A program made the position numbers and the translations under genes. Below the pieces are notes generated by a model, which was not told the DNA's origin, made no database searches, and saw only the letters and a program-made list of their open reading frames with translations. From Burkholderiaceae bacterium (GTDB lineage: Bacteria > Pseudomonadota > Gammaproteobacteria > Burkholderiales > Burkholderiaceae): a stretch of 33,081 bases of DNA. The stretch spans positions 1 to 33,081 of the forward strand of contig CANGWV010000007.1 of NCBI GenBank assembly GCA_947457875.1, in the 5' to 3' direction. Shown here one piece after another: positions 7,528 through 8,617 of the stretch (the first letter of the stretch is position 1; each line of letters opens with the position of its first letter).

Positions 7528-7580
7528 AAAGGAATGCCTTTTCCATATACCCAATTCGATAAAAGTACGATAAACTGTTT

Positions 7581-7766
7581 GCAAGCAGGAGAGTGAGGCT
7601 ATGCCTCCACCGAAGGCGCAAACTCCCATGAACGCTCAGGTATCCACCCGGAAGGTACTGCTTATCCTAAATAGCCGTCTGGAGAGTCGCCATCGTATGG
7701 CGCACCGAAGGAGCAAATACTAAGCTGGGCTTAGTGTGAATCTCTCAGGTATCAGGGACAGGGGGA
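7581..7766 (+). ncRNA. Tandem glycine riboswitch (two aptamers, about 7581-7662 and 7678-7766)
   Basis: Aptamer 1: GGAGAGTGAGG...CCACCGAAGGCGCAAACTCCC...CGCTCAGGTA. Aptamer 2: GGAGAGTCGCC...GCACCGAAGGAGCAAATAC...TCTCTCAGGTATCAGGGACAGGGGGA. These are glycine aptamer core motifs. Confidence 0.9.
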
Positions 7767-7776
7767 GCGGCAAGCT

Positions 7777-7799
7777 TGCAATCAGCCAGTCTGATTGCA
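7777..7799 (+). promoter_or_regulatory. Hairpin in the putative riboswitch expression platform (TGCAATCAG-CCAGT-CTGATTGCA)
   Basis: Perfect 9-bp stem 11 nt after the second aptamer, just before an AGGAG/ATG. Confidence 0.5.
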
Positions 7800-7918
7800 T
7801 GGTGCTATTAGGAGCCCTGCAATGACACGTTATTCCGGTTAATTCAGTTAATTGATTTTTTGGAACATTGGCCATCCATTTGGTCACCATTACAACCTAC
7901 TGAATGAAAGCAATTCCC

Positions 7919-8122
7919 ATGTCGAATCAATATGCACACGAAGCCCCATACCACCCAGGTTATGAGGATGCCTCATTTAAAAACGAAGTATCGCCACAAA
8001 TTGCAGAGTTAAACGAATACCGCAAAATGAGTGCCCGGCACTTGCAGTTCTCCAATACCATCGTCCAGTTCTGCAAGTCTGATGTAAACCACCATGCCCA
8101 GCAAAGGCCTGCAAAAAGCTAA
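7919..8122 (+). CDS. Small hypothetical protein (67 aa; alternative start 7904)
   Basis: MSNQYAHEAPYHPGYEDASFKNEVSPQIAELNEYRKMSARHLQFSNTIVQFCKSDVNHHAQQRPAKS, followed by a terminator; weak RBS. Confidence 0.45.
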   Translation: MSNQYAHEAPYHPGYEDASFKNEVSPQIAELNEYRKMSARHLQFSNTIVQFCKSDVNHHAQQRPAKS

Positions 8123-8151
8123 GCAGGACAGCAAACAAGGAGTTGGATGGT

Positions 8152-8175
8152 AAACCACCTGCGGGTGGTTTTTTC
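8152..8175 (+). terminator. Rho-independent terminator
   Basis: AAACCACCTGCGGGTGGTTTTTT: 7-8 bp stem then T6. Confidence 0.85.
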
Positions 8176-8218: not shown

Positions 8219-8617
8219 ATGCTTCTCGTCACCACATTGATTGCCTGCATTTTGGCGGCCCTCTTTATTCGCCTATCTTTTGGCGTTATTCGTCTGCGAC
8301 GACACCATAAAGTAGGTCTGGGTAGCGGTGGCGTTGACGATTTAGAGCGTGCCATTCGGGCTCAAGCTAACTTTGCCGAATACGTACCGATTGCATTAAT
8401 TCTCATGGCTTGCCTCGAGCTCAATGGCGCGCCGCTATGGCTGATCGCCATCCTTGGCATTACCTTGGTGGCTGGCCGAGTGATTCATGCAAAGGGAATT
8501 AATCAACCACCGCCACACTTTCGCAATCGCGTCATCGGCATGAAATTCACGATCACGACCCTCATTATGTTGGTGGTATTTAATCTAGCCTGGTTGCTGT
8601 TGCAGCTCTGGTCATAG
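8219..8617 (+). CDS. MAPEG-family membrane protein
   Basis: RRHHKVGLGSGGVDDLERAIRAQANFAEYVPIALILMACLELNGAPLWL...GRVIHAKGI. Confidence 0.85.
   Translation: MLLVTTLIACILAALFIRLSFGVIRLRRHHKVGLGSGGVDDLERAIRAQANFAEYVPIALILMACLELNGAPLWLIAILGITLVAGRVIHAKGINQPPPHFRNRVIGMKFTITTLIMLVVFNLAWLLLQLWS

Follow-up and report, generated by a model that had tools for sequence, protein, structure and literature searches.

Glycine riboswitches are a textbook class, and their targets are treated as known, namely the cleavage system and transporters. A locus in the window (the whole stretch of 33,081 nucleotides of Burkholderiaceae DNA that was analysed) raises the question of what such a riboswitch controls when no glycine gene adjoins it. 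The original prediction had described intact tandem glycine aptamers that lack an adjacent glycine gene and are followed by a 6-codon ORF, an ORF of 67 aa and a terminator, and all of these elements were borne out. All features of the unit lie on the plus strand. Aptamer 1 (7576-7670; 46.6 bits, E 1.3e-8) and aptamer 2 (7669-7771; 58.1 bits) both match the sequence and structure model of Rfam family RF00504 above its gathering score, the curated cut-off of 32 bits, and this check also set the aptamer boundaries. In the window-wide cmscan, aptamer 2 was listed alone; the output states that one overlapping match was omitted, and the weaker match was probably dropped owing to the 2-nt overlap. 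The two aptamers adjoin each other and are followed on the 3' side by a single leader with its expression platform. Judged by model score and tandem layout, the RNA at 7576-7771 is a true glycine riboswitch. Additionally, a hairpin formed by TGCAATCAG and CTGATTGCA (7777-7799) separates aptamer 2 from the leader ORF in the minimum free energy (MFE) fold, and inspection of folded homologues displayed a hairpin of differing sequence at the same position. Neither gcvT nor another glycine-cleavage gene is found directly downstream, where the small ORF and a MAPEG gene come first.

The answer depends first on whether the 67-aa ORF (7919-8122), whose product begins with MSNQYAHEAPYHPGYEDASFKNEVSPQ, encodes a protein. 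An in-frame ATG at 7904 would extend it to 72 aa. The named relatives are members of Polynucleobacter, and of 101 genomes of this genus, 42 yielded relatives in a search with the query protein. A profile search returned the identical 42 genomes and one weak partial match inside a 502-aa frame. Among 399 order-level genomes from 158 genera and 300 family-level genomes from 25 genera, no genus other than Polynucleobacter carried the small protein. Members of the family are 58-67 aa long, and the aligned sequences have the motif E-A-P-[YF]-H-P-G-Y-E-D in common, with rare exceptions. The invariant residues include E8, A9, H12, P13, G14, Y15, D17, R35, I48 and V49, and the dN/dS values of 11 pairs range from 0.03 to 0.15. 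Comparison with Pfam, NCBIfam, PHROGs and PDB sequences gave sub-threshold chance matches, none of them significant. The AlphaFold model (mean pLDDT 74, pTM 0.38) displays a confident C-terminal helix and a loose N-terminal motif, and it had no match in the PDB by Foldseek. As far as conservation and substitution patterns can tell, the ORF encodes a genuine protein that belongs to a new family and is under purifying selection.

The protein and the riboswitch are closely linked throughout the genus. In 38 of the 42 genomes that carry the small ORF, a tandem glycine riboswitch precedes it at a distance of 135-185 nt. When only the MSN/MTN-type of the small ORF is considered, linkage to the riboswitch was observed in 38/38 genus genomes and in 45/48 named loci. 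The named collection of 48 loci comprises 44 with two intact cores, 1 with a single core and 3 of the MNSK type. The remaining four genomes (G078, G087, G093 and G124) carry a divergent MNSK-type paralogue with a strong ribosome-binding site of its own and without the riboswitch, which indicates that not every member of the small-protein family is controlled by glycine. Purifying selection together with linkage in 38/38 genomes strongly supports the suggestion made earlier that the glycine regulon has a new member in the 67-aa protein.

Several individual loci were also noted. The MNSK-type paralogue (L112, L116, L118 and L187-L190) has neither riboswitch nor leader ORF and is preceded by the strong Shine-Dalgarno sequence TTTGGAGGATTT; a conserved stretch, CTATGCTACATTGA, lies upstream and may be the promoter. 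The single-core locus (L119, contig CAIVXR010000049.1) has lost one aptamer core, starts with GTG and has its motif degraded to EALYHSGYEGA, and it is apparently a decaying copy. Polynucleobacter sp. 71A-WALBACH carries two units of riboswitch, leader ORF and small protein (L080 and L081), which belong to different sequence groups.

Between the riboswitch and the small ORF lies the 6-codon leader ORF ATGACACGTTATTCCGGTTAA (7822-7842), which encodes MTRYSG and a stop, with the Shine-Dalgarno sequence AGGAG at 7810-7814. All 54 distinct leaders contain a leader ORF of 5-6 codons with a GGAG site, and the start codon is ATG in 53 of them and GTG in 1. Among the closest pairs, codon third positions vary most, and the ratio of nonsynonymous to synonymous changes per site is 0.40. 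Divergence per nucleotide is 0.175 in the leader ORF vs 0.267 and 0.379 in its flanks. A leader ORF of 5-6 codons was not found in 30 Polynucleobacter glycine-riboswitch leaders that precede gcvT, dadA-like or NAD-binding-protein genes. The distance from the second aptamer core to the leader ORF start is 102-121 nt and resembles the 86-90 nt that separate the second core from the gcvT start in those gcvT units where the start was located, suggesting that the leader ORF is what the expression platform acts on. For the small ORF, the distance from the second core is 178-248 nt. The gap between the leader stop and the small ORF measures 55-108 nt, and there is no AUGA overlap of stop and start. 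The leader ORF is probably the direct target of the glycine switch. Its presence had been recognised in the original prediction; its conservation in every leader and this likely role had been missed.

A putative coupling stem would connect the two ORFs. The 5' arm, ATTCAGT (7842-7848), begins at the leader stop codon, and the 3' arm, ACTGAAT (7899-7905), lies directly 5' of the small-ORF ribosome-binding site, which is weak in the clade of the window (GAAAG). Both the MFE and the centroid fold of the window pair 7842-7848 with 7899-7905 and place an inner hairpin at 7861-7889 (core pairs 7869-7874 with 7881-7886); inner hairpins were also seen in folded homologues. Across the leaders, pairing between the two native arms averages -9.1 kcal/mol vs -7.4 kcal/mol with permuted partners, and 0 of 20,000 permutations reached the native value. 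The register is specific, with 69% standard pairs vs at most 42% in slid registers, and pair changes on both sides (C-G to T-A, T-A to G-C and A-T to G-C) can be observed. In most lineages, the position of the leader stop is fixed relative to the 5' arm. The row-shuffle test for covariation, run on fixed columns, gave a marginal result (102 of 2000), bulges are needed in one clade, and the stem of the window itself is no more stable than shuffled sequences (z -0.9). When a ribosome was modelled at the leader stop, the small-ORF site became more accessible in 43 of 52 leaders; the site is predicted to be about half-open in all modelled states, with means of 0.43-0.56. That the coupling stem is real is supported but not proven by these comparisons.

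We consider it moderately probable that the locus forms a self-contained glycine-responsive unit, in which the riboswitch gates the leader ORF and the output is relayed to the Polynucleobacter-specific small protein by what would be an ON switch. The tandem aptamer would directly gate translation of the 5-6-codon leader ORF. The stem that extends from the leader stop to just before the small-ORF Shine-Dalgarno sequence would keep that site closed, and a ribosome completing the leader ORF would cover the 5' arm and free the site. High glycine would then lead to more small protein. The ON direction is taken from GCV-type glycine riboswitches, which have been described as activating degradation at high glycine (PMC6944388), and it is from the arrangement of the stem that we infer the relay from leader ORF to small ORF. 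The strongest competitor to this relay, in our estimation unlikely, accepts the conserved unit and lets the aptamer act directly on the small ORF, or on the access of Rho to the leader, while the leader ORF insulates or modulates and coupling is not obligatory. Such direct action agrees with the marginal column-wise covariation and the half-open small-ORF site, and Rho-linked and uORF-modulated riboswitches are known (PMC12810186, PMC11260477). However, it does not account for a leader stop held against the 5' arm in most lineages or for arm pairing well above the permuted level, and the distance from aptamer to start suits the leader ORF rather than the small ORF. The relay is retained as the preferred reading.

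Strand complementarity and folding were examined for a route by which the aptamer would reach the leader ORF. In the window, CAGGG at 7759-7763, part of the 3' strand of P1 in aptamer 2, is a candidate switching strand by duplex prediction, and CCCTG at 7815-7819, between the leader Shine-Dalgarno sequence and the start codon, is its weak candidate partner. It is plausible that pairing of 7759-7763 with 7815-7819 would make an ON switch in the window. Across the leaders, the P1 strand is barely more complementary to the initiation region of the leader ORF than shuffled sequences are (mean z -0.39), and the difference is not significant. Thermodynamic folding of the bound and unbound aptamer revealed no consistent change at the leader Shine-Dalgarno sequence, with an increase in 28 of 52 leaders. 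In leaders of the MTNKFVEE group (such as L091, L094 and L101), the P1 3' strand GGAGCGGC can pair with GCTGCTTT or GCCGTTTT directly 5' of the leader Shine-Dalgarno sequence, so that the partner changes and complementarity is kept. This pairing is possibly an expression platform specific to that group.

The unit ends at an intrinsic terminator (8152-8174), in which AAACCACC and GGTGGTTTTTT enclose a TGCG loop and a T run follows. It was identified by folding; a consensus terminator scan did not report it, since some of the Ts in the run are part of the stem. Nearly all homologues inspected have a comparable hairpin, likewise with a T run, behind the small ORF. The upstream neighbour, a cupin of the DUF985 type on the minus strand, has no link to glycine, nor do the downstream neighbours, which encode MAPEG, methyltransferase and nitronate monooxygenase proteins. 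In other clades, the genes downstream are different ones, among them a gene for an ABC substrate-binding protein and, on the opposite strand, a phosphatase-like gene. In Polynucleobacter sp. 78F-HAINBA (L057 / L084), foreign-looking sequence near a contig end, possibly the end of a mobile element, interrupts the terminator after the small ORF.

Given this layout, read-through of the terminator with the MAPEG gene (8219-8617) as the real target was considered. This gene is the next one on the plus strand after the terminator and remains nearby in several relatives; the explanation is nonetheless very improbable, since it must pass a terminator present in nearly all homologues, and since the genes behind the unit vary by clade whereas its riboswitch and its two ORFs remain linked. 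Equally improbable is a role for the terminated leader as a trans-acting small RNA that responds to glycine, with the small ORF secondary to it. A short terminated transcript without a metabolic gene would suit such a function, and riboswitches acting on antisense or regulatory RNAs are treated in a review (PMC9943018), but the strong coding signal in both ORFs and the great difference in intergenic sequence between clades speak against it. No support was found for the trans-acting RNA that had been offered as one option in the original prediction.

The glycine metabolism genes of the genus give the unit its background. As had been suggested for checking, gcvT and gcvP were sought in the genome of the window, and no match was found in this 1.58 Mb assembly, which is 79% complete; near-complete relatives with the matching locus likewise lack gcvP. 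Within Polynucleobacter, gcvP is present in 17 of 101 genomes, all 17 of which have a glycine riboswitch, and where the loci were inspected this riboswitch precedes gcvT. The gene gcvP and the small protein never occur together: they are found in 17 and 42 of the 101 genomes with an overlap of 0, compared to 7.1 expected (hypergeometric p 3.5e-5, uncorrected for phylogeny). The idea that a gcv operon was lost or moved, leaving the aptamer stranded as a relic, fits the absence of gcvT and gcvP here and is compatible with the mutual exclusion, but it is scarcely credible for a unit conserved across the genus. Dozens of species have two well-scoring aptamers, selection on the downstream protein is strongly purifying, a synteny comparison with gcv loci revealed no neighbouring gene families in common, and the degraded L119, with its lost core, illustrates what a relic looks like.

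Other targets of glycine riboswitches were observed in the genus. A flavoprotein resembling D-amino acid dehydrogenase (NF009074, PF01266) lies behind glycine riboswitches in L003, L004, L006, L008, L012, L150-L159, L161 and L184, outside the cleavage-system and transport contexts. Tandem glycine riboswitches also lie upstream of an uncharacterised NAD-binding-like protein (L005, L164, L167, L182, L183 and L186), which has no Pfam match and a faint signal of 2-dehydropantoate reductase; it is possibly another member of the glycine regulon. The dehydrogenase unit and the small-protein unit coexist in some genomes, for example G013, G020 and G104.

As for the role of the protein in the preferred self-contained unit, it would help cells whose genomes lack the glycine cleavage system to handle a surplus of glycine, and it is probably a glycine-excess effector. 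By analogy, it most likely binds and adjusts an enzyme or transporter of glycine metabolism. A regulatory role is favoured by the short N terminus bearing the motif, the long helix, the lack of an enzyme-like fold, the control by glycine and the occurrence in species without gcv genes, as well as by the resemblance to IF17, an inhibitor under the control of a glutamine riboswitch in cyanobacteria (PMC6316151). The full chain, in which a two-step relay from riboswitch through leader ORF to main ORF yields a glycine-induced regulator that binds and lowers the synthesis or uptake of glycine and takes the place of the missing cleavage system, is possible, yet we regard it as rather doubtful.

The sensor and the general idea of a uORF relay are known, and the target family and the arrangement are new. 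A lineage-specific small protein as the sole target, found only in species without the cleavage system, suggests another route for coping with excess glycine. Since the RNA names the signal, it also provides a handle on an uncharacterised protein family, and the leader ORF of 5-6 codons would be a small, naturally occurring example of translation relaying the output of a riboswitch. Moreover, Polynucleobacter is abundant in freshwater, which implies that the unit of riboswitch and small protein is ecologically widespread.

In the literature searched, no publication was found that describes a Polynucleobacter glycine riboswitch which has a leader ORF or targets a small protein, and no precedent was found for a uORF relay of glycine riboswitches. 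Other Polynucleobacter motifs (icd-II, carA and HRC-28-1) are reported in PMC8632094, which does not include the glycine leader-ORF unit. Published surveys of glycine riboswitches centre on GCV and transport contexts (PMC6944388, PMC12452182). The tandem riboswitch of the GCV context, of which gcvT-type examples also exist within Polynucleobacter, is similar to that of the window in its adjacent aptamers, intact cores, single downstream platform, proteobacterial occurrence and position near a translation start. It differs in its target, as the locus in the window controls no gene of glycine degradation or transport, its first ORF is a leader and its product is novel.

Among riboswitches of other classes, the closest parallel in target is the glutamine riboswitch located upstream of gifB, which encodes IF17, and of other small proteins with DUF4278 in cyanobacteria; according to the available sections of PMC6316151, glutamine raises the synthesis of IF17, which shuts the glutamine-making enzyme. 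In both cases, an amino-acid riboswitch lies in the 5' UTR of a gene for a small protein and not an enzyme. The gifB system, as described in those sections, has another aptamer and no leader-ORF relay; the proteins are without detectable similarity, and no Pfam or NCBIfam match to DUF4278 or IF7-like sequences was found in the Polynucleobacter small protein. For the leader, parallels are found in Mycobacterium tuberculosis. The first target of the Mbox riboswitch is a conserved small ORF with a translational platform, and the Mbox differs in its Mg2+ ligand and Rho-dependent termination (PMC12810186). At ppe2, a B12 riboswitch acts via a short uORF whose translation is needed for the downstream gene (PMC11260477). 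Polynucleobacter has the corresponding element, a short uORF conserved as coding, with its own Shine-Dalgarno sequence, between aptamer and main ORF. The ppe2 system is an OFF switch that responds to B12 and operates by termination-reinitiation at an AUGA overlap (PMC11260477), whereas in Polynucleobacter 55-108 nt separate the leader stop from the following start, and the putative stem would bridge this gap.
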